Below the pieces are notes generated by a model that saw nothing but the letters and a program-made list of their open reading frames with translations, searched no databases and was not told the DNA's origin. Below, piece after piece: positions 2,212 to 18,674 of a stretch of DNA of 64,000 bases (the stretch's first letter is position 1; the number at the start of each line of letters is the position of its first letter). The stretch covers positions 124,001 through 188,000 of the forward strand of contig NZ_FZNS01000007.1 of the NCBI RefSeq assembly GCF_900188255.1, written 5' to 3'. Position numbers and translations under genes: made by a program. The DNA is from Hymenobacter mucosus. Lineage in GTDB: Bacteria > Bacteroidota > Bacteroidia > Cytophagales > Hymenobacteraceae.

Positions 2212-4584
2212 ATGACTCCCCTCCCGAAACGCGCTTGGTTGCTACCGATACTACTTGGTGCTCTCATCGGCCCCGTAGCACAGGCCCAAACCTACCTGCC
2301 TACCCCCAACGATGCGCGGATGAAGGTGCAGCCTCAGGTACCAGTGAAGGCGTATGCGTTCAATCTTGCTCAGGTGAAGCTACTCGATAGCCCATTTAAG
2401 GTGGCCGAACAAGCTGACACTAAATACTTGTTGAAAATTGAGCCCGACCGGTTGCTGGCTGATTTTCGGGAGCACAGCGGCTTGAAAGCCAAGGGCGCCC
2501 GCTACGGCGGGTGGGAATCATCAGGGCTGGCGGGGCACACGCTGGGGCACTACCTGTCGGCCTGCGCGCTGGCCTACGCCTCCACCGGCAACGCCGAATT
2601 CAAACAGCGGGTGGACTACATTGTGGCCCAGCTAGATGAGTGCCAACAGGCCCGCAAAAATGGCTACGTAGGAGCCATTCCGAAGGAAGACCAGCTATGG
2701 GCGGAGGTAGCCAGCGGTACCATTCGCTCGCGTGGCTTCGACTTGAACGGGGCGTGGTCGCCGTGGTACACGGTGCACAAAATCATGGCTGGTTTGCTCG
2801 ACGCGTACTTGTACTGCGACAACAAGACGGCCCTCACTGTCAACCAAGGTATTGCCGACTGGACGGGTAACATCATCAAAGGCCTCGACGACGCTAAGAT
2901 GCAAGAAATGATGGTGTGCGAGTACGGGGGCATGGCTGAAACCCTCGCCAATACCTATGCCCTGAGCGGTGATAAGAAGTACCTCGACCTTTCGTACCGC
3001 TTCTACGACAAAAAAATCTTGGACCCACTGGCCGCCGGCACTGATATTCTGCCCGGCAAGCACTCCAACACCCAGATTCCGAAAGCCATTGCCAGTGCCC
3101 GCCGCTACGAGCTAACCGGCGACAAAAAGGACGCCGCCATTGCCCAGTTTTTCTGGCAAACTGTGACCGAAAACCACTCTTACGCCACCGGCGGCAACAG
3201 CAACTATGAGTACTTGGGGGAGCCCCGCAAGCTTAACGACAAGCTCAGCGAAAACACCACCGAGACCTGCAACACCTACAACATGCTGAAGCTCACGCAG
3301 CATTTGTTTGCCCAACAGCCCTCGGCGAAGCTGATGGATTACTACGAAAAGGGACTTTACAATCATATTCTGGCCTCGCAGCACCACGAAACTGGCATGA
3401 CGACCTACTTCGTGCCGCTGCGCATGGGGGGCCGCAAAACCTACAGCGACGAGTTTAACACCTTCACCTGCTGTGTAGGCTCGGGCATGGAAAACCACGT
3501 GAAATATGCTGAGAACATCTACTTCCAGGGCGCGGACGGTAGCTTGTACGTCAACCTGTTCATTCCCTCGGAGCTAAACTGGAAGGAAAAAGGCGTGACC
3601 CTGCACCAGGAAAGCCAGCTGCCGGCCAGCAACCAGGTTACGTTTACCGTAGCGGCCGCCAAGCCTCGCGCCTTTAAGCTGCGCCTGCGTCAGCCCAAGT
3701 GGGCTAAGAACCCGCAAGTGCGTGTGAACGGCAAAGTAGCAGCCGTGAGGCCCGACGCGGAAGGTTACCTTGTGCTTGACCGCAAGTGGAAAAACAAGGA
3801 CCGAGTAGAGTTGACCTTGCCCGCCGACTTCTACACCGAAGCCTTGCCCGATAACCCCGACCGGCGTGCAGTGTTCTATGGCCCAACGCTGCTAGCCGGC
3901 GTGCTAGGAAACACTGAGCCGGAACCCGTCACCGGCGTGCCCGTACTCGTGACAGCAAACAACAGCGCCAACGACTGGGTGAAACCGGTGGATGCCAAGC
4001 AGCTACGCTTCCAGACAGCGGGCCTAGGCGTGCCGAATGATGTGCCCTTGATTCCCTTCAACCAAACCGGCAATGAGTACTACACCGTGTACTGGGACGT
4101 ATTTACGCCCGAGAAGTGGGCTACCCAGCAGCGCGTATACGAGGCCGCCCGCAAGAAGCAGCAAGAGCTGGAAGCCCAAACCGTAGATGTGCTGCGCGTG
4201 GGCGAAATGCAGCCTGAGCGCGACCATAGCTTCACCATCACGGAGAAAGCCGAAACCGGTGAGGAACACGGCCGTAAGTGGCGCATGGTAAATGAAGGCG
4301 GCAACATGACGTTCACCCTAAAAGTAGCCCCCGCCAAAGCCAACACCCTGCTGCTCACTTACTGGGGCACGGACAACCGTGGCCGCGTATTCGATGTGCT
4401 GGTTGATGGCGAGAAGATTGCCACCGAAGACCTCAACAAATACAAAGAGAGCCGCTTCTACGACATTTCGTATCCCATCCCTTCCGCGCTAACGAAGGGT
4501 AAGCAGCAGGTAAAAGTGACTTTCCAAGCCAAGCCGAATAATAGCGCTGGCCCAGTCTACGGCATCCGCAACGTGCAACAATAG
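2212..4584 (+). CDS. GH146-like (DUF1680) beta-L-arabinofuranosidase
   Basis: Predicted secreted beta-L-arabinofuranosidase, 790 residues, with a signal peptide ending near VAQAQ (residues 22-26). The (alpha/alpha)6-barrel shows GGWESSGLAGHTLGHYLSA near residue 105, the E-T-C motif at 351-353 and a Cys pair at 420-421, the same metal-binding pattern as GH127. Overall character (TETCNTYNMLKLT; TCCVGSGMENH) is closer to Bacteroides GH146 enzymes of the DUF1680 superfamily. A beta-sandwich follows, then two C-terminal beta-rich modules (about 645-790) of the sort named DUF4986/DUF6805 in databases; that naming is from memory. It follows the first GH127 by 270 bases on the same strand and probably acts on a different linkage or chain context. 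The superfamily is firm; GH146 rather than GH127 is likely. Confidence 0.88.
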   Translation: MTPLPKRAWLLPILLGALIGPVAQAQTYLPTPNDARMKVQPQVPVKAYAFNLAQVKLLDSPFKVAEQADTKYLLKIEPDRLLADFREHSGLKAKGARYGGWESSGLAGHTLGHYLSACALAYASTGNAEFKQRVDYIVAQLDECQQARKNGYVGAIPKEDQLWAEVASGTIRSRGFDLNGAWSPWYTVHKIMAGLLDAYLYCDNKTALTVNQGIADWTGNIIKGLDDAKMQEMMVCEYGGMAETLANTYALSGDKKYLDLSYRFYDKKILDPLAAGTDILPGKHSNTQIPKAIASARRYELTGDKKDAAIAQFFWQTVTENHSYATGGNSNYEYLGEPRKLNDKLSENTTETCNTYNMLKLTQHLFAQQPSAKLMDYYEKGLYNHILASQHHETGMTTYFVPLRMGGRKTYSDEFNTFTCCVGSGMENHVKYAENIYFQGADGSLYVNLFIPSELNWKEKGVTLHQESQLPASNQVTFTVAAAKPRAFKLRLRQPKWAKNPQVRVNGKVAAVRPDAEGYLVLDRKWKNKDRVELTLPADFYTEALPDNPDRRAVFYGPTLLAGVLGNTEPEPVTGVPVLVTANNSANDWVKPVDAKQLRFQTAGLGVPNDVPLIPFNQTGNEYYTVYWDVFTPEKWATQQRVYEAARKKQQELEAQTVDVLRVGEMQPERDHSFTITEKAETGEEHGRKWRMVNEGGNMTFTLKVAPAKANTLLLTYWGTDNRGRVFDVLVDGEKIATEDLNKYKESRFYDISYPIPSALTKGKQQVKVTFQAKPNNSAGPVYGIRNVQQ

Positions 4585-4746: not shown

Positions 4747-5808
4747 CTAGCTATTGCGCAGGGAGGAGGCGCGTATGAGCAGTTCGGGCTGCAACACAAT
4801 GTGGTGGGTAGCCGTGGGCGGAGATGCTTGCTGCAGGTCCAGAAATAGGCGCACCGCCGCCTCGCCCATCTGTTCGCAGCACTGGTCTACCGATGTAAGC
4901 CGCGGCGTGGTCAGGGACGTGAACATTTCGTTGCTGAAGCCCGCCAAGGCCACTTCTTGCGGCACTTGCAGCCCGTGCTCTTCCAACACTTGCAGCGCTC
5001 CGGCTATGGCGGCGTCGCTGCTGGAGAAAATAGCATCTGGGCGCTCGGGCAATTGCAACACTTGGCGCATGGCTTCGCGGCCGGCGTCCAGCGTGATGGG
5101 GTCGCAGTATACAATTTGCTCTTCCGCCACTGGTAGTCCATGCTTACGCAGGGCATCAAGGTAGCCTTGCCGCCGATGGGTGTAGATGCCGAGGTGCTGG
5201 GGACCGGCAAAGTGACCAATGCGCTGGCAGCCTTGCTCTATTAGGTGCTCCGTGGCAATAAACCCACCTGTGTAGTCGTCCAGCAGTACGGCATTTACTT
5301 CCGTACCTGGCAACACTCGGTCAAAGAAAACCAAAGGAATGCCTCGGTTCTGCACCTTTTCGAAGTGAGCGAAATCGTGGGTAGTGCGCGAAACTGAAAC
5401 TAAAATGCCTTCTACTTGGGCCCGCAACAAGGTCTCGATATTCTGCCGCTCATGAGCCACCTCCTCATTCGACTGGCAAATGATGACGCTAAAGCCCGCT
5501 TGGCTGGCGGCCAGTTCAATACCCTTGATAACTACCGCGAAAAAGCGACCATCAATGTAGGGTACAATTACGCCCAGCAGCTTGCTTTTGCCCTTGCGCA
5601 GTCCGGCAGCCAAGTGGTTAGGCTGGTAATTCAGCTGTAAGGCCAGTGCCTGCACTCGTTGCTTGGTTGCTTGACTGATGCGAGAGTCATTATTTAAAGC
5701 CCTCGATACACCGGATACTGATAAACCCAGCTGCTTTGCTAGGTCCGTTATCGATACTTGCTTCGTTTCTCTTCTTTTGGCCAAGATCTGAATAGTTATA
5801 GTGCGCAA
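4747..5808 (-). CDS. LacI-family transcriptional regulator
   Basis: Sugar-responsive DNA-binding repressor. The N-terminal helix-turn-helix (about residues 20-45, ITDLAKQLGLSVSGVSRALN) and hinge helix (NYQPNHLAAGLRKGKS) are classic LacI features, followed by a periplasmic-binding-protein-like effector domain with SVSRTTHDF, VFFDRVLPG and SSDAAIAGALQVLEEHG. It is transcribed head-to-head with the GH127 gene at 6188 and sits inside the arabinose locus, so control of that locus is a reasonable inference. No ATG exists upstream of the helix-turn-helix: the frame begins with TTG at 5808, and a second TTG at 5784 would give a more typical short N-terminus. Effector identity (arabinose or an arabino-oligosaccharide) is not visible in the sequence. 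Confidence 0.93.
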   Translation of the reverse strand: MRTITIQILAKRRETKQVSITDLAKQLGLSVSGVSRALNNDSRISQATKQRVQALALQLNYQPNHLAAGLRKGKSKLLGVIVPYIDGRFFAVVIKGIELAASQAGFSVIICQSNEEVAHERQNIETLLRAQVEGILVSVSRTTHDFAHFEKVQNRGIPLVFFDRVLPGTEVNAVLLDDYTGGFIATEHLIEQGCQRIGHFAGPQHLGIYTHRRQGYLDALRKHGLPVAEEQIVYCDPITLDAGREAMRQVLQLPERPDAIFSSSDAAIAGALQVLEEHGLQVPQEVALAGFSNEMFTSLTTPRLTSVDQCCEQMGEAAVRLFLDLQQASPPTATHHIVLQPELLIRASSLRNS

Positions 5809-6187: not shown

Positions 6188-8227
6188 ATGGTCAAATTTG
6201 CTTTTACCGCTCTAGCGTTCAGCCTGACAACTGCTGCCTTGGCACAGCGCTCCGACTATCCTATTCGGGCGGTGCCGTTCACGCAAGTCAAGCTAACCGA
6301 CACCTTTTGGTTGCCCCGCCTCAAGACTAACACCGACGTCACCATTCCCGCTTCGTTTCAGCGCTGTGAGGCTACTAACCGCGTGAAAAACTTTGAGATG
6401 GCGGCCGCCAAACAGGGCAAGTTTGCCACTACTTTTCCTTTCGACGATACGGATATTTACAAGACCATTGAAGGCGCGTCCTACTCGATGAGCCTGTATC
6501 CCGACGAAAAACTGGGTGCTTACGTGGATGCGCTCGTTGCCAAAGTAGGCGCCGCGCAAGAGCCCGATGGGTACCTGTACACAGCCCGCACCATTGACCC
6601 CGCCCACCCGCATCCTTGGGCCGGACCAGAACGCTGGGAAAAAGAACGGGAGCTAAGCCACGAGCTGTACAACTCAGGCCACTTGTACGAGGCCGCCGTG
6701 GCGCACTACCAGGCGACCGGCAAGAAAACCCTGCTCAACATTGCGCTGAAAAACGCCGACTTAGTGTGTGCAGTGTTCGGGCCCGGCAAACGCCGCGTGG
6801 CACCTGGCCACGAGATTGTGGAAATGGGCCTGGTGAAGCTCTACCGCGTAACGGGCAAACCAGAATACCTGAGCACGGCTAAGTTCTTCCTCGAAGCCCG
6901 GGGCCACTACAAGGGCTATGACCCCCAAAGCCAGGACGCCTGGAAAAACGGCTCTTACTGGCAAGATGACAAGCCCGTAGCAGACCAGCGCGAGGCCGTG
7001 GGCCATGCCGTGCGTGCGGAGTACCTCTACTCGGCTATGGCCGACGTGGCCGCTCTTACGGGCGACCAGCAGCTGCTGGCGTCGGTAGACAGCATCTGGC
7101 ACAACATGGTCTCGAAGAAGCTCTACGTGACGGGGGGGACGGGCGCCGTGCCGGGGGGCGAGCGGTTCGGGGGCAACTATGAGCTGCCCAACACCACGGC
7201 CTACAACGAAACCTGCGCCTCGGTGGCTAACGTGTACTGGAACCAGCGTATGTTTCAGCTCCACGGCGACTCGAAGTACGTGGACGTGCTGGAGAAGGTG
7301 CTCTACAATGGGTTGATTTCCGGGGTAGGACTGGATGGCAAGTCCTTCTTCTACTCCAACGCCATGCAAATCAAGAACAGCGTGAGCTTCGCACAGAGCG
7401 AGCCTCAGCGCGCGGGCTGGTTTGACTGTTCCTGCTGCCCGACCAACTTGGCGCGGTTGTTTCCTTCGTTGCCGGGCTATGTGTACGCCCAGAAAGGCAA
7501 CGAGGTGTACGTCAACCTCTTTGTGAGCGGTAGCACCGACTTGCTCGTGAACAAGAAGAAGGTGCAGATTACCCAGCAAAACAACTATCCCTGGCAAGGC
7601 GACCTGAAGTTCACGGTAAACCCTGCCGCCAGCACCGACTTCAACCTGCTAGTGCGCTTGCCGGGCTGGGCTCGCAACGAGGCTGTCCCCTCCGACCTGT
7701 ACACGTTTGCGACGCCTTCGCAGGAAAAGGTAAGCATCAAAATCAACGGCAAACCCGTGACCTACACCGTGCAGAAAGGCTACGCGGTGCTAGCCAAGAA
7801 GTGGCGTAAGAATGACGTGGTAGAAGTAACGCTGCCTATGGAAGTGCGCCAAGTGGTAGCAAATTCTAACGTGAAAGCTGACTTGGACAAAGTGGCGTTG
7901 CAACGCGGCCCCGTGGTATACTGCGCTGAGTGGAAGGACAATGGGGGCAAAACCAGCAACCTGATTGTGCCAACCACGACCACCTTCACTGCTGCCTACA
8001 CGCCTGAGGTCCTCAACGGCATCATGCAGCTCACCGCTACCATACCGGCCGTGCAAGTAGATGCCGCCAAGAACTCCGTTCGTACCGTGCAGCAGACCAT
8101 GACCGCCGTTCCCTACTACGCCTGGGCCAACCGGGGCAAGGGAGAAATGACTGTGTGGTTTCCCCAACGCGTAACCGACGTTGACCTCATCAGTCAACCT
8201 ATTGTCGAAGCAGTAGTCAACAAATAA
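6188..8227 (+). CDS. GH127 beta-L-arabinofuranosidase
   Basis: Secreted retaining beta-L-arabinofuranosidase, 679 residues, the usual length for the family. A signal peptide ends at TTAALAQ (about residue 20). The helical barrel carries YNETCASVANVYWNQRMF, with Glu341 and Cys343, and FDCSCCPTN with Cys416-Cys417, in near register with Glu338/Cys340/Cys417/Cys418 of HypBA1. The C-terminal beta-sandwich ends with VPYYAWANRGKGEMTVW, also present in the first GH127 of the window, but the extra C-terminal domain of that protein is absent. It is the first gene rightward of the LacI regulator and leads into susC/susD. HypBA1 removes beta-1,2-linked L-arabinofuranose from hydroxyproline-linked arabino-oligosaccharides; a similar substrate is inferred here. 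Confidence 0.95.
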   Translation: MVKFAFTALAFSLTTAALAQRSDYPIRAVPFTQVKLTDTFWLPRLKTNTDVTIPASFQRCEATNRVKNFEMAAAKQGKFATTFPFDDTDIYKTIEGASYSMSLYPDEKLGAYVDALVAKVGAAQEPDGYLYTARTIDPAHPHPWAGPERWEKERELSHELYNSGHLYEAAVAHYQATGKKTLLNIALKNADLVCAVFGPGKRRVAPGHEIVEMGLVKLYRVTGKPEYLSTAKFFLEARGHYKGYDPQSQDAWKNGSYWQDDKPVADQREAVGHAVRAEYLYSAMADVAALTGDQQLLASVDSIWHNMVSKKLYVTGGTGAVPGGERFGGNYELPNTTAYNETCASVANVYWNQRMFQLHGDSKYVDVLEKVLYNGLISGVGLDGKSFFYSNAMQIKNSVSFAQSEPQRAGWFDCSCCPTNLARLFPSLPGYVYAQKGNEVYVNLFVSGSTDLLVNKKKVQITQQNNYPWQGDLKFTVNPAASTDFNLLVRLPGWARNEAVPSDLYTFATPSQEKVSIKINGKPVTYTVQKGYAVLAKKWRKNDVVEVTLPMEVRQVVANSNVKADLDKVALQRGPVVYCAEWKDNGGKTSNLIVPTTTTFTAAYTPEVLNGIMQLTATIPAVQVDAAKNSVRTVQQTMTAVPYYAWANRGKGEMTVWFPQRVTDVDLISQPIVEAVVNK

Positions 8228-8385: not shown

Positions 8386-11300
8386 ATGAAAATTCCCTTA
8401 CCCCACACAAACAATCTGGTGCTGCTCGCTTCGCTCTGCGGGGTAGCCGTAACAATGCCCCAGAAAAACTTGGCCGCTACTCGGATTAGCACGTCTATTT
8501 TCCAAGCAGATGGGCCAATCAAGGGTCGAGTAATCGATAACACTGGTGCTGGCTTACCCGGCGTGAACGTGGTGGTAAAAGGCACAACTACTGGGGCCCA
8601 AACCGACGCAGATGGCAACTACTCGCTCACGGCTCCCGACAATGCCGTGCTCGTGTTCAGCTTTGTCGGTTCTACGGCGCAAGAGGTGGCTGTTGGCGGA
8701 CGCTCAGTCATCAACGTAACGCTGCAACCGGACTCGAAAGCGCTTGGTGACGTGGTGGTAGTAGGCTACGGCACCCAGCGGCGCGCTGACCTGACCAGCT
8801 CGGTAGCAAGCGTAAAGGAGGAGAGTTTTATTAAAGGCGCAACCAAGGACGCGGGCCAGTTACTACAAGGCAAAGTGGCGGGCCTCACGGTGAGTACGCC
8901 TAGCGGCGACCCAACCGCTAACAGCCAGATCTTGCTGCGCGGCACGGCTACACTAAACTCCAGTACCCAACCGCTGGTGTTGATTGATGGTATTCCGGGC
9001 ACGTTAAACACAGTAGCCCCCGAAGACATTGAGTCGATTGACGTGCTAAAAGATGGCTCCGCGGCTGCTATTTACGGTACGCGCGGCACCAACGGGGTAA
9101 TTCTCATTACTACGCGCCGCCCGAAAGGCAACATTGAGCCTACTATTGAATACAGTGGCTACGTGAGCACCCAGCGTATTGCGCGCCGCCCCGAAATGCT
9201 CAGCGCCAGTGAGTACCGGCAGCAGCTAGCGGGCGGCGTGGCCTTCACTGACCAAGGCAGCAGCACCGACTGGATAAAGGAAATTAGCCAAGACCCGCTC
9301 ATTCACGTGCACAACCTAACCTTTAAGGGAGGAAATGGGCAAACGAACTACCTACTCAATGGTAACTATCGTTACCTCGAGGGCATTTTTAAGAAATCGG
9401 ATAACCGTACATTCACCGGTCGGGCCGACATCAACCACGCCATGTATGATGGGCGGGTGAAGATCAATCTTGGCATTCTAAACACCAACAACCGTTTTAC
9501 GACAACAGCCGACGGCGGCAGCTTCAATGGTTATACCTACCGGCAAGCTGTCATTCGCAATCCAACTGCCCCAGTCTACAATGCTGACGGCACCTATGCT
9601 CAGCAGCTTTCCCTCTTCAACTACGAAAATCCCCTCTCACGCCTCTACAACTCAGATGGTGAAAACACATTCCAGAATACTCGCCTGAACGGTAGTATTG
9701 TGTGGGAGCCCATCGACAATCTACAGTTGAAGGCGCTGGCGTCTAACACGCGTTATAACCAAATACGGGGCTACTCAGAAAATAAGCAGCATCCTTCTAC
9801 TCTGCGGGATGGCTTAAATGGCTTCGCGTCCCGGGGCACAACTCAGATTATTGATAAGCTGGCCGAGCTGACCGCTTCGTACAACCGTAGCTTTGGTGAG
9901 CACCGCTTTTCCGCCCTGGGTGGCTATAGCTACCAGCAAAATACGGCCGAGAACTACTTCATGCAGAACTGGGATTTTCCCACTGATCTGTTTACGTACA
10001 ACAACATTGGCATTGGCAATGCGCTACGACTTGGCCGGGCACCTATTTATAGCGATAAGACACGTTGGAACCTGGTCGGCTTTTTCGGCCGCGTGACTTA
10101 CAACTACAAGGAAAAATACTTGCTGTTGGCAAGTGTGCGACGCGAAGCTTCATCGCGCTTCTTAGGAGCTAAGCAGCCGTGGGGCACCTTCCCGGCTGTG
10201 TCGGTGGGCTGGCGTATCAACCAGGAAAACTTCTTGCAGGGCGCTACCTTCCTTGACGATCTGAAACTACGAGTAGGCTACGGCGTGACGGGCACGGCTC
10301 CTGATGCCTCGTTCCTGGGGGTAGCTCGCCTTGGCTATACAGGTTACTTCCTCTCCAATGGTACGTGGGTACAAACTTTGAGCCCCGTGAGCAACCCCAA
10401 CCCATCCCTGCGCTGGGAGGAGAAGCAGGAGTCTAACGTGGGTATTGACTACTCCGTGTTCAAAGGGCGCATCAGCGGTACGGTAGACTACTACCTCCGG
10501 CGCACGAACGGTCTGCTGTACGATTACCAGGTGCCTTCGCCTCCAAACCTGTTTACGACGACAACCGCCAACGTGGGCGCCATGGAAAACAAGGGCATTG
10601 AAGTGCTAGTCAACGTGGTTCCGGTGCAAACCAAAAACTTTGTCTGGAACTCAAGCTTCAACTTCTCTACCAACCAAAACAAGCTGGTTTCGCTCACCAA
10701 CGACCTTTACACGCTTACCAATAACTTCTTCAACACGGGTTATACCGGCGAGCCAATTCAGACTTACACCCACCGGATAGAGGTTGGTAAGCGCCTCGGT
10801 GATTTCTACGGCTATAAGGTAGTAGACGTAACCGACGATGGGCAGTGGATTTACGAAACCAAAACGGGCGAGCGGCTACCCTACAGCCAATTCTCACACA
10901 GCGAAGACGATAAGCAAGTGCTCGGCAACGGGTTGCCCAAGTACTACGCCGGGTGAAACAACAACTTCCAGTACAAGCGCCTCGACTTGGGCATCACGAT
11001 GCGCGGTGCATTCGGCTACCAGATTCTGAACTTCCAGCGCATGTACTATGAGAACACCGGTGTAACGCAGTACAACCGCCTGAATACGGCCTTCGATAAG
11101 GTGTTTGACAAGGCAGTACTCAATAAGAGCATGCCCCTAGAGTACAATAGCTACTACATTGAGGACGGCGACTTCTGGAAAATTGACAACATCACCCTCG
11201 GCTACAACTTCAAGCCGAACTTGGTGAAGTACATCAAAAACATGCGCGTGTACGTGGCCACGCTCAACACCTTTACCATTACGGGCTACTCGGGCATCGA

Positions 11301-11400
11301 CCCCGAAGTGAACCGGATCGGCCTGGCTCCCGGCAACGATGAGCGTGACAAGTACCCCACCGTCCGCACCTTCACTTTTGGCGCTAACCTAACCTTTTAA
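8386..11400 (+). pseudogene. susC: SusC/RagA TonB-dependent outer-membrane transporter, interrupted by in-frame TGA
   Basis: Outer-membrane importer of the SusC/RagA family that pairs with SusD to bring oligosaccharides into the periplasm. From the ATG at 8386 the frame has a signal sequence, a carboxypeptidase-regulatory-like domain (KGRVIDNTGAGLPGVNVVVKG, about residues 45-120), the TonB plug starting VVVVGYGTQRR (about 125), TRGTNGVILITT near 235, and a 22-strand-type barrel. A TGA at 10954-10956 (codon 857 of 1004) interrupts the frame, which then continues without a shift to 11400 and ends in the usual aromatic barrel terminus TFGANLTF. The context YYAG-stop-NNNFQYK fits a conserved Trp, so TGG to TGA is likely. 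This may be a true nonsense mutation, a base-call error or, less likely, read-through. A TTG at 8350 could extend the N-terminus, but the signal sequence favours 8386. Confidence 0.9.
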
Positions 11401-11416: not shown

Positions 11417-13042
11417 ATGAATACTATTGCTAAGTCACTGCGGGTTAGCGTACTGGCCGCTACTGCGCTCGGTCTGTTCAACGCCTGCACCAAGCTCGAC
11501 GATGAGAGCTACAATCAAATTGTTACCAGTCAGTTTACCCCCACGTCTCAGGACGTACTGGCCCTGATTGGTCCTGCCTACAGCACGTGGCGCCCCTTAT
11601 ACCTAGAGTTCAACGGCGTCTACCGCATCAATGAAACATCCACGGACGAGACGGTTACCCCTGCCCGCCCCAATGGCTGGGTAGATGATGGTTCGTTCCG
11701 GCGCCTGCATGAGCATAAATGGACGGCGCTGGATGCTACCCCGCGCGACGCTTGGAATCAGTCGTTCGCCGGCATCACCAACTGTAACCGTGTACTTTTC
11801 CAAGTGGAATCGGGTCAGGTGCCTGTGCCTACTGGCAAAGAGCAGCTTATTGCGGAACTGCGCGTGCTGCGGGCCTCGTACTACTACATGCTGTGCGACC
11901 TATTTGGAAACGTGCCAATTGTAGACCGGTTTGACGTACCAGCCGGCTTTCTACCAGAGCAAAATACCCGCAAGCAGGTCTACGACTTTATCATCAAGGA
12001 AGTAACGGAAGCCCTACCCCTACTCAGCGACGCGGCCGACGCCACCACGTACGGGCGCTTTAGCAACAAGTGGACGGCACAAGCCCTACTAGCCAAAATG
12101 TACCTCAACGCGCAGGTATATACCGGTCAGGCTGAATGGGTAAAGTGTATTGCTGCCTGTGATGCCGTAATAAACTCGGGCAAATACGCACTGGAGCCCA
12201 TTCAAGCCAACGTATTCAAAACGCAAAATGAGGGCTCGAAGGAAATCATCTTTGCCATTCCCTTCGATGAAGTGTATGCCACGGGTTTTCGCGTGCACAT
12301 GCAAACCCTACAGCCGCAGAATCAAGCAACGTACAATGCCCAGGCCAGTATGTGGGGCGGTGGCATCTGCGCCATTCCACAGTTCATCAACACGTACGAC
12401 CCCGACGATACTCGCTTAAGGCAGAACTGGATTCAAGGCCAGCAGTTTTCCTCCTCGGGGGTGCCCCTGGTGGGAGTATTTGGGGCCTTTACGGGCAAGC
12501 CCTTAATTTTTACGAACACCTTACCTGGCATTGACAATTCTGCGGAAGTAGATGGCTTCCGGGTAGGCAAGTTTGAAATCAAGCAAGGCGTTCGGGTTGA
12601 TTTGAGCAACGATTTCCCCTTGTTCCGCTACGCCGATATTCTCATGATGAAAGCCGAAAGCTTGCTGCGCTTATCCCAAACCACGCAAGCGGCTGACCTC
12701 GTAACCCAGGTGCGGCGGCGCAACTTTGCAACTGCTGCGAAGGCTACCGTAACGGCGGCCGACCTGTTGCGGGGCAGCGTGTACCAATATGGTCCGGCTC
12801 GCAACAACGTGGTGAGCCCCGTGGAAGGCGGCGCCGATATTCAGTACGGCCGATTCCTGGATGAGCTAGGCTGGGAGTTCACAGCCGAAGGTCACCGCCG
12901 TCAGGATATGATTCGTTTCGGAGTGTACACCAAAAAGTCGTGGCTCTCGCACGTGCCCAATGGGGATTACCGCACGCTAATGCCTATTCCACAGAACGTC
13001 CTGAATACCAACGCCAAGTTAAAGCAAAACCCAGGCTACTGA
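11417..13042 (+). CDS. susD: SusD/RagB outer-membrane glycan-binding lipoprotein
   Basis: Surface lipoprotein that captures oligosaccharides and forms the lid of the SusC channel. It has a lipobox (LGLFNAC, Cys24) and SusD-family features: an N-terminal tetratricopeptide-like helical part with ELRVLRASYYYMLCDLFGNVPIVDRF (about 140-170) and WTAQALLAKMYLNAQVY (about 220), and a C-terminal RagB/SusD part with FPLFRYADILMMKAESLLRL and LGWEFTAEGHRRQDMIRFG. It starts 16 bases after the susC stop, so the two are co-transcribed. It appears intact even though susC carries an internal stop, which suggests that the nonsense change is recent or an error. Confidence 0.96.
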   Translation: MNTIAKSLRVSVLAATALGLFNACTKLDDESYNQIVTSQFTPTSQDVLALIGPAYSTWRPLYLEFNGVYRINETSTDETVTPARPNGWVDDGSFRRLHEHKWTALDATPRDAWNQSFAGITNCNRVLFQVESGQVPVPTGKEQLIAELRVLRASYYYMLCDLFGNVPIVDRFDVPAGFLPEQNTRKQVYDFIIKEVTEALPLLSDAADATTYGRFSNKWTAQALLAKMYLNAQVYTGQAEWVKCIAACDAVINSGKYALEPIQANVFKTQNEGSKEIIFAIPFDEVYATGFRVHMQTLQPQNQATYNAQASMWGGGICAIPQFINTYDPDDTRLRQNWIQGQQFSSSGVPLVGVFGAFTGKPLIFTNTLPGIDNSAEVDGFRVGKFEIKQGVRVDLSNDFPLFRYADILMMKAESLLRLSQTTQAADLVTQVRRRNFATAAKATVTAADLLRGSVYQYGPARNNVVSPVEGGADIQYGRFLDELGWEFTAEGHRRQDMIRFGVYTKKSWLSHVPNGDYRTLMPIPQNVLNTNAKLKQNPGY

Positions 13043-13183: not shown

Positions 13184-16100
13184 ATGCTTTGCAAGCACCC
13201 GTTCCTTCTAGCGGCTAGCCTGCTGATTTTGCTTTACTTGTCTGGGTGCCAGCACGAGCAGCGCGCCGTAGTGAATAAGAACGCGCTGTTTCAACTAGTG
13301 CCGTCGGAGCAAAGCCACGTCACGTTCCGCAACGACTTCCAGGAGGACGAGTTGACCAACGTGCTGGTGTACGAGTACACCTATAACGGCGGTGGCGTGG
13401 CCCTCGGTGACGTGAACAACGACGGCCTCGACGACATCTACTTCACGGCTAACAAAGGCAGCAACAAGCTCTACCTGAACAAAGGAAACCTTCGTTTCGA
13501 GGATGCTACTGATGTGGCGGGCGTGGCCTTGCCGAAAGGCTGGAAAACTGGCGTCACGATAGTAGACCTGAACGCCGACGGCCGCCTCGATTTCTACGTG
13601 TGCCGCTCGGGCGACTTGCCGGGTAAGCTCCGCCAAAATCAACTCTTCCTCAACCTAGGTCCGGATACGCAAGGGGTGCCCCACTTTCGGGAGCAAGCCG
13701 CTGCGTGCGGGTTAGCCGATTCGGCCTACAGCACCCAGGCCGTCTTTTTCGATTACGACAAAGACCAGGACCTCGACATGCTGCTGCTGAACCACAGTCC
13801 GCGCCGATTTGAGAACCTGGATGAGTTTTACATCAAGCAACTCATGCGCACGCCCGATGCGCTGACGGGGCTAAAGCTGTACCGCAATGAAGGCAGCCGA
13901 CAGGGCTTGCCGCAGTTTCGGGAGGTGGCCACCGCGGCGGGCTTGCTGAACACGCGCTTGTCCTTTGCTCTCGGCGCCTCTGTGGCAGACCTCAACAACG
14001 ATGGCTGGCCCGATATTTACCTGTCGAGCGACTACCTAGCCCCCGACTATCTCTACCTCAATAACCACGACGGCACGTTCACCGACCAACTCGGCAGCCA
14101 AATGGGCCACACGTCGCTCTCCTCGATGGGCAACGACGCGGCCGACCTCAACAACGACGGCTACGCCGATGTGTGCACCCTCGACATGCTGCCCGAGGAC
14201 AACCGGCGGCAGAAGCTGCTCTTCGCCAGCGACAACTACGAGTTGTTCCGCATCCGCGACGAAGCAGGGTTGCACAAGCAGTACATGCGCAACATGCTGC
14301 ACCTCAACAACGGCAACGGCACCTTCAGCGAGATTGGGCAGTTAGCCGGCATCTCGAATACTGATTGGAGCTGGGCCCCACTGCTGGCCGATTATGACAA
14401 TGACGGCTGGAAAGATCTGTTTATCACCAATGGCTTTCTGCACGACTACACCAACCTAGATTTCCTGAAGTACATGGGCGACTTTCTGCACGACCGCCAA
14501 GGCGACGTGCAGCGCAAAAACCTACTAGATCTGGTGCGCAAGATGCCTTCCTCCAACGTGATGGGCTACGCATTCCGTAACAAGGGCAACGCGACCTTCG
14601 CCAACGTCAGCGCCGACTGGGGCATCACGGAACCCGCCAACAGCAACGGTGCCGCTTACGCCGACCTCGACAACGACGGCGACCTAGATGTGGTGGTCAA
14701 CAACCTCAACGGCGAGGCGTTTCTATACCGCAACACCGCGGAGAAACGGCTTAAAAACCGGGGCTTATCCGTGCGGTTGGAAGGCCTAGGTGCCAACCGC
14801 CTAGGTATCGGGGCGAAGGTGCTGCTGTATAGCAACGGCCTGACCCAGACCCAGGAACAGCTAGTCGGGCGCGGCTACGAATCGAGCGTGTCGCCGGTGC
14901 TGCACTTTGGCCTAGGTCAGCAGCGCCAAGCCGATTCGGTGCGCGTGGCGTGGCCGAGCGGCCGACAGCAGGTGGTGCGCGCCGTGGCAGCAGGTAAGCT
15001 GCTGGTACTGCGCGAAGCGGAGGCGCAGAAGCCAATGGCATCAGCTCCGACCAAAGCTAGCCTACCGGCGTTTGCGGCGGTAGCTTCGCCGATTACGGCG
15101 GTGGCGGAAGAAAACAACGTCAACGACTTTAAGCGCCAACCGCTGCTCGTCAACAGCTTATCGTACAGTGGGCCGTGCCTGGTGCAGGCTGATGTGAACG
15201 GCGACGGTCGGCAGGATATGTTCATGGGTGGCGCCTCGGGCCATGCCAGCCGACTCTTTGTACAACAGGCTACGGGCCAATTTACGGAGTTGCCGCAGCC
15301 TGCTTTGGAAGCTGATTACCTACAGGAAGACACCGACGCCGCTTTCCTGGATGCAGACCACGACGGCGACCTAGACCTCTACGTGGCCAGCGGCGGCTAC
15401 GACAACTTCTTACCCGGCGACGCGCTCCTGCAAGATCGGTTGTACCTCAACGACGGGCGCGGCAACTTCAGCAAAAGCCCCGCGGGCAGCCTGCCCGCCA
15501 TGCCCACCAGCACCGCCTGCGTGCGAGTAGCCGACGTGAACGGCGACAGCGCCCCCGACCTCTTCGTGGGAGGCCGCGTGACACCCGGCCGCTACCCCGA
15601 ACCGCCCACCAGCTACCTGCTGCTTAACGATGGCCACGGCCACTTCCGCGACCAAACCGCGAACCTAGCCCCTGCGCTCCGGCAGCTAGGTATGATAACT
15701 GACGCCGCCTGGGTGGACCTGAACCAAGACCAACGCCCCGACCTGGTGACGGTAGGCGAATGGCTGCCCGTGCAAGTATGGCTGAACCAGAACGGCCGGC
15801 TTACTGACCAAACTGCGACTTACCTGCCCGGCAAGCTGTCGGGTTGGTGGAACAAGCTGCTAGTAACCGACCTGAACAAGGACAACAAACCGGACCTAGT
15901 AATCGGCAACATGGGCCTGAACACTCAGTGCCGGGCCAATGCGCAGCAACCCGCGGAGCTGCACTACAAGGACTTCGACGACAACGGCGCCATCGACCCG
16001 ATTTTGTGCATGTATTTGCAAGGCAAAAGCTACCCCTTCGTGTCGCGCGATGAGCTGCTGGACCAGCTCAGCATGACGCGCAGCCGCTTCCCGAACTACA

Positions 16101-16540
16101 AGAGCTACGCCGACGCCCAACTCACCGACATCTTTAAACCAGACGAGTTAAAGGGCACCAACGTACTACGCGCCAACCATCTGCAAACCAGCTGCCTACT
16201 GAGCACCCCGCAAGCTAGGTATCGGCTAGCTTCCCTCCCACCCGAAGCGCAATACACCCCCATCTTCGCCCTCACTACCCTCGACTACAACCACGACGGC
16301 AACCCCGACTTACTGCTCGGCGGCAACGCTACCCACAGCCGCATCCGCTTCGGCAACAACGATGCGGGCTATGGCCTGCTCTTGCGCGGCAACGGGCGGG
16401 GCGGCTTCACCACGGTTCCGCAGCGGCAGTCGGGCTTGCGGGTGCAGGGCGATGTGCGCAGCTTCGCCCAACTCGGTAAGGTGCTCGTGGTAGGGCGCAA
16501 CAACCAGCCTTTGCAAGCCTATGCTTTGCAAAGTCCATAA
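13184..16540 (+). CDS. FG-GAP/VCBS-repeat lipoprotein with ASPIC/UnbV domain
   Basis: Large predicted lipoprotein (1118 residues; lipobox LYLSGC, Cys22). It is built from many calcium-binding-like FG-GAP/VCBS repeats of the form D-x-N-x-D-G-x-x-D: DVNNDGLDDIYF, DLNADGRLDFYV, DLNNDGWPDIYL, DYDNDGWKDLFI and DLDNDGDLDVVV in the first half, then DVNGDGRQDMFM, DADHDGDLDLYV, DLNKDNKPDLVI and DYNHDGNPDLLL in the second. Between the halves (about 535-610) sits an ASPIC/UnbV domain with GIGAKVLLY and VRVAWPSGRQQ. The repeats predict one or two seven-bladed beta-propellers. Such proteins often follow susCD pairs in Bacteroidota, where they are suspected to bind glycan or protein at the surface; no enzymatic role can be assigned. 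Confidence 0.9.
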   Translation: MLCKHPFLLAASLLILLYLSGCQHEQRAVVNKNALFQLVPSEQSHVTFRNDFQEDELTNVLVYEYTYNGGGVALGDVNNDGLDDIYFTANKGSNKLYLNKGNLRFEDATDVAGVALPKGWKTGVTIVDLNADGRLDFYVCRSGDLPGKLRQNQLFLNLGPDTQGVPHFREQAAACGLADSAYSTQAVFFDYDKDQDLDMLLLNHSPRRFENLDEFYIKQLMRTPDALTGLKLYRNEGSRQGLPQFREVATAAGLLNTRLSFALGASVADLNNDGWPDIYLSSDYLAPDYLYLNNHDGTFTDQLGSQMGHTSLSSMGNDAADLNNDGYADVCTLDMLPEDNRRQKLLFASDNYELFRIRDEAGLHKQYMRNMLHLNNGNGTFSEIGQLAGISNTDWSWAPLLADYDNDGWKDLFITNGFLHDYTNLDFLKYMGDFLHDRQGDVQRKNLLDLVRKMPSSNVMGYAFRNKGNATFANVSADWGITEPANSNGAAYADLDNDGDLDVVVNNLNGEAFLYRNTAEKRLKNRGLSVRLEGLGANRLGIGAKVLLYSNGLTQTQEQLVGRGYESSVSPVLHFGLGQQRQADSVRVAWPSGRQQVVRAVAAGKLLVLREAEAQKPMASAPTKASLPAFAAVASPITAVAEENNVNDFKRQPLLVNSLSYSGPCLVQADVNGDGRQDMFMGGASGHASRLFVQQATGQFTELPQPALEADYLQEDTDAAFLDADHDGDLDLYVASGGYDNFLPGDALLQDRLYLNDGRGNFSKSPAGSLPAMPTSTACVRVADVNGDSAPDLFVGGRVTPGRYPEPPTSYLLLNDGHGHFRDQTANLAPALRQLGMITDAAWVDLNQDQRPDLVTVGEWLPVQVWLNQNGRLTDQTATYLPGKLSGWWNKLLVTDLNKDNKPDLVIGNMGLNTQCRANAQQPAELHYKDFDDNGAIDPILCMYLQGKSYPFVSRDELLDQLSMTRSRFPNYKSYADAQLTDIFKPDELKGTNVLRANHLQTSCLLSTPQARYRLASLPPEAQYTPIFALTTLDYNHDGNPDLLLGGNATHSRIRFGNNDAGYGLLLRGNGRGGFTTVPQRQSGLRVQGDVRSFAQLGKVLVVGRNNQPLQAYALQSP

Positions 16541-16643: not shown

Positions 16644-18674
16644 ATGAAAATCTCCCCGTCTTCCCTGCTGCTGACGTGCTTAGGCCTAGCATCCTTGCTG
16701 CCTGGTCGTAGCGAGGCGCAGAAAGCCCCCAGAAAAGCGCAGCCCGACCTAGCCGCTGGCAAACCTATCAGCCAGGATCTGTTCGGTATCTTTTTCGAAG
16801 ACATCAACTACGCCGCCGACGGGGGCCTCTACGCCGAGCTAGTGCAAAACCGCTCTTTCGAGTACACTCCCAACGACAACGCCGCTTGGCATTCCCTCAC
16901 GGCCTGGGAGTTTCTGCGGGAAGGCTACTCCTTCGGCACCATGTCGGTGGAAACGGCGGCGCCCGTCAACCCCAGCAACCCGCATTACGTGACCTTGCAC
17001 GTGGAGAATGAGATGCAGAAAGGGCTTGGCTTGAAGAACAGCGGCTTCGATGGCATTCCGGTGAAGGCTGGCGACCAGTATAATTTCTCGGTGCAGGCCC
17101 GGGTAAAGGGCGGCAAAACCGTTCCGCTGCTTGTTCAATTGCGCGACAAAGAAGGCGGCGTGCTGGCGACGGCATCGCTACCGGTGCAAAACGCCTCTTG
17201 GCAGCCCTACCGCGTAACGCTTACCCCCACGGGCACCGATGCCGCCGGCAGCCTAGTGGTGGTGGCCACCGGCAAAGGCACCGTCGACCTTGATTTGATT
17301 TCCCTGTTCCCGCAGAAAACCTTCAAGAACCGCCCCAACGGCATGCGCGCCGACCTAGCCCAGGCCATAGCCGACTTGCAACCGAAGTTCGTGCGCTTTC
17401 CCGGCGGCTGCCTCGCCCACGGCGACGGCTTGGAGAACATGTACCGCTGGAAAAACACCATCGGCCCCCTGGAGCAGCGCGTGGCGCAGCGCAACATTTG
17501 GAACTACCACCAGACCGCCGGCCTAGGGTACTTCGAGTATTTTCAATTCTGCGAAGACATTGGTGCTAAGCCTCTGCCGGTAGTACCAGCGGCAGTATCA
17601 TGCCAAAACTCGGGCGGCACGTGGCGCATCGGCGGCACCGGGCAGCAGAGCATTGCCATGGCTGAAATGCCGGAGTACGTGCAGGAAGTACTGGACTTGA
17701 TTGAGTACGCCAACGGCCCCACTACCTCTACCTGGGGCGCCAAGCGGGCCGCGGCGGGCCACCCCGAGTCGTTTCACCTAGAGTATGTAGGCGTCGGCAA
17801 CGAAGACAAGCAGACTCCAGAGTTTCGCGAGCGGTTCAAGCTTATCTACGACGCCGTCAAGCAAAAGCACCCCGAAGTCACGGTGATTGGTACCGTGGGG
17901 CCAGCCCCTCGCGGTGAGGACTTTGACCAGGGTTGGACCTTCGCCAATCAGTTGGCCGTGCCCATGGTGGATGAGCATTACTACGAGAGTCCCGAGTGGT
18001 TCCTGAAAAACAACCGCCGCTACGACAGCTACGACCGCAAGAAGTCTACCGTGTACCTAGGGGAGTACGCTTCGCGGGGCAACACCCTTTTCAACGCCCT
18101 GGCCGAAGCCGCCTACATGACCTCGTTGGAGCGCAACGGCGACGTAGTACGCCTCGCTTCCTACGCCCCGCTGCTCGCGAAAGAAGGCCACACCCAGTGG
18201 AACCCCGACCTAATATACTTCAACAACTCCACTGTGTGCCCTACCGCGAACTACTACGTGCAGCAGCTGTTCTCGCGCAACCAGGGCAGCGAGTACTTCG
18301 GCGGCGTGCTCACGGCCACCGACTCGGCCGTGGTCAGCTCCTGCGTGCGCGACGCCAACAGCGGCGACGTGATTCTGAAGCTGGTGAATTCCGGCGCTAC
18401 CGCCCAGCCCGTGCGCGTGGATTTGTCGCGCTTCAAGCGCCTGCGCCCCACGGCCGAAGTCATCACGCTTTCCGGTCCGCGCGATGCCAAAAACACCTTC
18501 GCCAGCCCGCAAACGGTAGTGCCCAAAACAGCTCCGTTCAAAGCTAGCGGCAACTTCGCCTACACGGCTGCGCCTTATTCGCTCACGGTGATTCGGGTGA
18601 AAGGCAGCGACGCCAAGCCGCGTAAGGACGTGTCGCGGGGCAGCACGGCCAGCAGTGGCTCCGCAGGTCGTTAG
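16644..18674 (+). CDS. GH51 alpha-L-arabinofuranosidase
   Basis: Secreted retaining alpha-L-arabinofuranosidase, 676 residues, releasing alpha-linked L-arabinofuranose from arabinan, arabinoxylan or arabinogalactan side chains. A signal peptide ends at RSEAQ (about residue 25). The N-terminal catalytic part starts DLFGIFFEDINYAADGGLYAELVQNRSFE, a GH51 hallmark; a CBM4/9-like module is inserted at about 105-215. FVRFPGGCLAHG is near 250. The acid/base is Glu387 in VGVGNE, the probable nucleophile Glu474 in YLGEYAS, and MVDEHYYESPEWF between them is also typical. The C-terminus is a beta-sandwich followed by a short Arg/Ser-rich tail. Its place after the GH127/GH146/susCD genes shows that the locus handles both alpha- and beta-arabinofuranosyl linkages. 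Confidence 0.95.
   Translation: MKISPSSLLLTCLGLASLLPGRSEAQKAPRKAQPDLAAGKPISQDLFGIFFEDINYAADGGLYAELVQNRSFEYTPNDNAAWHSLTAWEFLREGYSFGTMSVETAAPVNPSNPHYVTLHVENEMQKGLGLKNSGFDGIPVKAGDQYNFSVQARVKGGKTVPLLVQLRDKEGGVLATASLPVQNASWQPYRVTLTPTGTDAAGSLVVVATGKGTVDLDLISLFPQKTFKNRPNGMRADLAQAIADLQPKFVRFPGGCLAHGDGLENMYRWKNTIGPLEQRVAQRNIWNYHQTAGLGYFEYFQFCEDIGAKPLPVVPAAVSCQNSGGTWRIGGTGQQSIAMAEMPEYVQEVLDLIEYANGPTTSTWGAKRAAAGHPESFHLEYVGVGNEDKQTPEFRERFKLIYDAVKQKHPEVTVIGTVGPAPRGEDFDQGWTFANQLAVPMVDEHYYESPEWFLKNNRRYDSYDRKKSTVYLGEYASRGNTLFNALAEAAYMTSLERNGDVVRLASYAPLLAKEGHTQWNPDLIYFNNSTVCPTANYYVQQLFSRNQGSEYFGGVLTATDSAVVSSCVRDANSGDVILKLVNSGATAQPVRVDLSRFKRLRPTAEVITLSGPRDAKNTFASPQTVVPKTAPFKASGNFAYTAAPYSLTVIRVKGSDAKPRKDVSRGSTASSGSAGR

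Follow-up and report, generated by a model that had tools for sequence, protein, structure and literature searches.

The window, the 64 kb stretch of DNA analysed here (G000:C25:124001-188000), belongs to a genome of 5.53 Mb that is available as a 35-contig draft, and its susC gene sits in a polysaccharide utilisation locus. The locus has three genes of the GH127 type: one at 67-1941, a second, intact glycosidase gene on the plus strand at 2212-4584 (PF07944, 410.5 bits), and another intact one upstream of susC at 6188-8227, also on the plus strand (PF07944, 366.5 bits). A LacI-type regulator (Pfam LacI and Peripla_BP_3) is encoded beside the locus on the minus strand (4747-5808). The susC-like gene follows on the plus strand, divided by an in-frame TGA (10954-10956) into a part before the stop (8386-10953) and a part behind it (10957-11400), and 16 bases separate its TAA from the ATG of an intact susD-like gene (11417-13042, plus strand; Pfam SusD_RagB and SusD-like_3). 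An intact gene for an FG-GAP / UnbV_ASPIC repeat protein (13184-16540, plus strand) lies downstream of susD, and an alpha-L-arabinofuranosidase gene (16644-18674, plus strand; PF22848, 334.6 bits) comes after it. Because of the GH127 matches, the substrates of the locus are probably beta-L-arabinofuranosides. The alpha-L-arabinofuranosidase has no match at E 1e-20 in the searched stretches of the related genomes G026, G023, G024 and Hymenobacter crusticola, and the two genes that flank it have orthologues that are immediate neighbours in G026. In G023 (L063), the orthologues of the GH127 genes at 67-1941 and 2212-4584 are found on the strand opposite to susC, and thus the species differ by a rearrangement of this locus.

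Translation of the susC frame from 8386 to 11400 encounters a single internal stop, the TGA at codon 857, behind which 147 codons follow in the same frame before the TAA. The initial annotation had described one SusC frame that runs on past its only TGA, and translation and the TIGR04056 profile both confirm this, since the two halves match consecutive stretches of the profile, positions 3-824 (residues 45-853, 615.9 bits) and 829-981 (84 bits). The 856 codons before the stop encode a carboxypeptidase-like domain, the plug and most of the barrel (Pfam CarbopepD_reg_2, Plug and TonB_dep_Rec_b-barrel), and this part alone exceeds the TIGR04056 cut-off of 368.25, the score rising to 709.9 bits when the stop is read through. 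The adjacent susD partner characteristic of the SusC family is likewise present (SusD_RagB, 11417-13042). What the standard-code product does not retain is a complete barrel with its C-terminal strand, as it ends at residue 856 and loses the strands up to residue 1003. Measured against the SusC/RagA family (TIGR04056), the table 11 product is 148 residues short, close to the loss of about 150 originally estimated, and ends inside a predicted barrel strand. The domain order is the same as in a solved relative, 8aa4_A, a 'SusC homolog' (phmmer E 1.3e-111 over residues 34-1004 of the read-through protein). The continuation behind the TGA is no chance open frame, because the protein encoded by the read-through gene is 86-90% identical to three orthologues and 73% identical to a fourth. 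As had been proposed, susD and the GH127 genes around it are intact, and their alignments to relatives show no internal stops.

The SusC loci most similar to the window gene come from G026 (90% protein identity), H. crusticola (L031, 89%), G023 (86%) and G024 (73%), the next ones falling to 42%. In all four, the orthologous susC is followed by an orthologue of the window susD, and in G026 and G024 the FG-GAP orthologue lies directly 3' of susD as well. The TGA had been taken to stand for a probable conserved tryptophan, which an alignment with the closest SusC proteins should reveal; indeed, the codon 857 column holds TGG, and thus Trp, in four of four orthologues, none of which ends at the position of the stop. 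The interruption therefore amounts to one G-to-A substitution, at base 10956, that is private to the window genome. In a wider but biased sample of 59 aligned SusC loci (29 paralogues from the same genome and 30 loci from other genomes), the column contains Leu (19 loci), Trp (12), Val (8), Phe (8), Ile (7), Ala (3), Gly (1) and one gap, the gap being L051, whose frame is broken there by a frameshift beside seven G. Column 857 is thus a hydrophobic position, and Trp occupies it in the eight most similar of the 59 loci. No genome of the same species was met among 59 genomes, the nearest orthologue being the one at 90% identity.

The age of the lesion can be approached by way of private changes, that is, differences between the window gene and codons that agree across three orthologues (G026, H. 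crusticola and G023). There are 62 synonymous and 8 nonsynonymous private changes before the stop, and 11 synonymous and no nonsynonymous ones in the 147 codons behind it, where the same count for the other three lineages yields 16/2, 8/1 and 9/5 (synonymous/nonsynonymous). If the region behind the stop had been neutral over the whole private branch, the probability of finding 0 nonsynonymous with 11 synonymous changes would be 6e-8 to 2e-6 (transition weights 1 to 6), and at the 95% level no more than 8-12% of the branch can have been neutral, both figures coming from a simple count with no fitted codon model and from lineages whose interspecies synonymous divergence is near saturation. The pattern therefore leaves three possibilities: a stop that has existed for no more than roughly a tenth of the private history of the lineage, a stop that is an artefact, and a stop that is read through. 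Relaxed constraint, which would be expected of an older pseudogene only, is not seen behind the lesion, and a disrupted frame with intact orthologues is what a recent pseudogene should display. Purifying selection thus appears to have acted behind the stop until very recently, as judged from the aligned codons, and the lack of nonsynonymous changes is equally compatible with a very young lesion, with an error and with read-through. The window susC resembles young bacterial pseudogenes made by a nonsense point mutation in its single lesion, its intact orthologues and its undecayed downstream part, but differs in that the lesion could still be a base-call error.

The scenario that we favour, and consider probable, is that a single, very recent G-to-A mutation put a stop at Trp857 into a susC gene that is intact in all other respects, provided that the assembly consensus gives the right base. 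In its genome the gene belongs to a family of 31 SusC proteins that score over the cut-off, 29 of them without a flagged stop; the exceptions are the window gene and L021 (G000:C18:225720-231590), whose SusC passes from one reading frame into another near profile position 82 and is otherwise intact. Broken copies in this 31-member family are therefore not unique to the window gene. A literature search on SusC pseudogenes or premature stops returned, among the matches listed, none that deals with SusC by its title, and the term is unspecific as 'susc' also matches 'susceptible'; a search on SusC/SusD nonsense mutations in Bacteroides led to a single paper, PMC11501099, which in its excerpted text concerns an anti-sigma gene.

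A less probable alternative, although one that deserves serious attention, is a sequencing or assembly error, with TGG in the real genome and a false consensus base at 10956. The complete lack of decay behind the stop (no nonsynonymous private change) would be readily explained in this way, and the sequence is a 35-contig draft in which tRNA-Ile(GAT) and tRNA-Ala(TGC) are absent from the 42 tRNAs; the assembly is therefore incomplete, perhaps missing an rRNA operon. Moreover, related SusC genes break at the same GG-x motif beside G-runs (seven G in L051 of G010, four G in L141 of G026), and many split SusC matches occur in the G010, G005 and G067 assemblies among the matches listed. However, the L051 and L141 lesions are frameshifts rather than a substitution. 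For the same reason a mutation hot spot at the GG-x motif, which we considered since both genes break at the same column, was discarded and the shared position treated as coincidence; among the matches listed, SusC breaks in relatives are scattered over many other parts of the profile, with position 144 a frequent one. The 751 bases around the TGA match only one place in their own genome, which gives no support to a duplicated segment and makes the collapse of a second copy unlikely. Nor do 80 histidine-kinase ATPase matches of about 100 codons each from the same genome, a small sample, contain any isolated nonsense lesion: three of the 80 were flagged with a stop, two at the proteins' own ends and one in a thoroughly decayed gene. 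Since two of the three flagged kinase matches were own protein ends, such flags were not taken to measure how frequent nonsense lesions are, and TAG flags on SusC genes of G004, G008 and G005 were left out of the counts because a flag can mark a normal protein end. A stretch elsewhere in the genome, L147 (G000:C34:26600-28200), holds the strongly decayed remnants of histidine kinase and response regulator sequence, in which stops and shifts of frame are numerous. In G026, G023 and G024, with 49 matches scored each, no SusC over the cut-off is flagged with a stop, while several in G026 are split among the matches listed. A random error thus appears somewhat less likely than a true mutation, a choice that the counts from this genome and its relatives leave undecided.

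The remaining explanations take the TGA as real and ask whether it terminates translation. Release factor RF2 is encoded (prfB, 480.4 bits against a cut-off of 370), and prfB keeps its programmed frameshift site, CTT TGA C, behind an AGGAGG; this autoregulatory site is described as conserved in the portion available of PMC5289835. The window susD itself ends in TGA (13040-13042), where four of four orthologues (H. crusticola, G026, G023 and G024) have TAA. TGA is the rarest stop, ending 10 of 102 ORFs of at least 200 aa from 66 loci of this genome, which overlap in part and include the interrupted susC; it also ends 3 of the 29 window ORFs of at least 200 aa, the interrupted susC among them, and 2 of 30 other, hand-picked window ORFs. 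Together, RF2, the susD stop and the other ORFs that end in TGA indicate that UGA functions as a stop here, and no support was found for a general recoding of UGA. ARAGORN, run on all 42 tRNA match loci of the draft assembly, predicted no UCA anticodon among the 42 tRNAs, and the one tRNA-Trp among them has the anticodon CCA. Programmed recoding, with selenocysteine or otherwise, would suit an in-frame UGA flanked by conserved coding sequence, but it can practically be dismissed: the best tRNA-Sec match in the draft genome (44.9 bits, cut-off 47) is a tRNA-Ser(TGA), the best SelB match (184.9 bits) lies below its cut-off of 242.25, and all four orthologues carry Trp, neither Cys nor UGA. It is hardly more plausible that the gene now encodes two proteins, with SusC cut short and a second product starting anew near 10987. 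While a mechanical ORF list includes 10987-11400 and in-frame ATGs occur at 10999, 11041 and 11131, the orthologues consist of one uninterrupted frame in which these ATGs are internal methionines, and no start codon is conserved at 10987, where the window has TTG and the orthologues have TTA, CTA, TTG and CTG. Moreover, the barrel fragment would lack a signal peptide and thus not be exported.

Near-cognate read-through, in which the ordinary tRNA-Trp reads UGA-A often enough to provide some full-length SusC, seems very unlikely. The stop does lie in the UGA-A context, one that tRNA-Trp tends to misread in E. coli according to the accessible part of PMC5289835. In the ORFs counted, no stop is rarer than TGA, and no nonsynonymous change has accumulated behind the one in susC. 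Furthermore, the tRNA-Trp has an A at position 24 and a G.U pair at 27-43, and the Hirsh UGA suppressor of E. coli is described, in the excerpts of PMC11805395 and PMC13092985, as a G24A change in tRNA-Trp. Yet A24 and the G.U pair are shared by this genome and all eight relatives examined (L095 and L131-L138); the tRNA-Trp genes of the relatives are 94-100% identical, those of G026 and G018 matching that of the window genome over all 72 bases. Being common to relatives, these features represent no new mutation and no private suppressor, and A24 need not suppress outside E. coli. The tRNA also differs from the tRNA-Trp with a 4-bp anticodon stem dealt with in the available portion of PMC13092985, in that it keeps five stem pairs, with the G.U on top, in a genome that encodes RF2. 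The present case shares with known cases of UGA reading by tRNA-Trp a UGA that replaces a Trp codon and precedes an A, as well as a tRNA-Trp with A24, but a second TGA-for-Trp was not seen: 28 other SusC frames of the genome contain 320 TGG codons and no in-frame stop, and none of the four orthologues keeps TGA at codon 857. One might extend the idea and propose that UGA is naturally leaky in Hymenobacter through A24 and the weak G.U top pair of its tRNA-Trp, such that TGG-to-TGA changes before A lower but do not abolish SusC and are tolerated as expression-lowering alleles, a speculation that we regard as slightly more improbable still. The initial annotation had left the choice between a recent change, an assembly error and suppression. 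The first two stand, whereas suppression has become unlikely after the search for a UCA tRNA, RF2, tRNA-Sec, SelB and a private change in tRNA-Trp, although ordinary near-cognate misreading at a low level keeps a small probability. The observation is thus real and its explanation in all likelihood ordinary. Functional read-through is the sole reading of wider interest, one to which we give very little credence, and its support is circumstantial because only the UGA-A context, the A24 and G.U 27-43 of tRNA-Trp and the rarity of TGA back it. If true, it would bear on the strictness of UGA termination in these Bacteroidota.

Should the favoured nonsense mutation be real, a recent G-to-A change would have turned TGG into TGA at Trp857, and translation under the standard code, with no special decoding, would end after 856 residues. 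In an AlphaFold2 model of the protein read through at the stop, built from a 36-row alignment (mean pLDDT 79.9, pTM 0.77), residue 857 lies in a predicted strand (853-863), and the long strands 866-876, 930-941, 952-966 and 993-1003 follow. The truncated product would be devoid of these remaining long strands, including the C-terminal strand paired by BamA, and should thus fail to assemble and be degraded. The SusCD pair, which probably serves beta-L-arabinofuranoside uptake, would then be non-functional in the isolate, with susD, the glycosidases and the rest of the locus intact. The window susC should accordingly be annotated as interrupted, and, until the base has been checked, the isolate should not be credited with a functioning uptake system at this locus. 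With a gap of just 16 bases from the original end of susC to the start codon of susD, early termination in susC might also lower susD expression.
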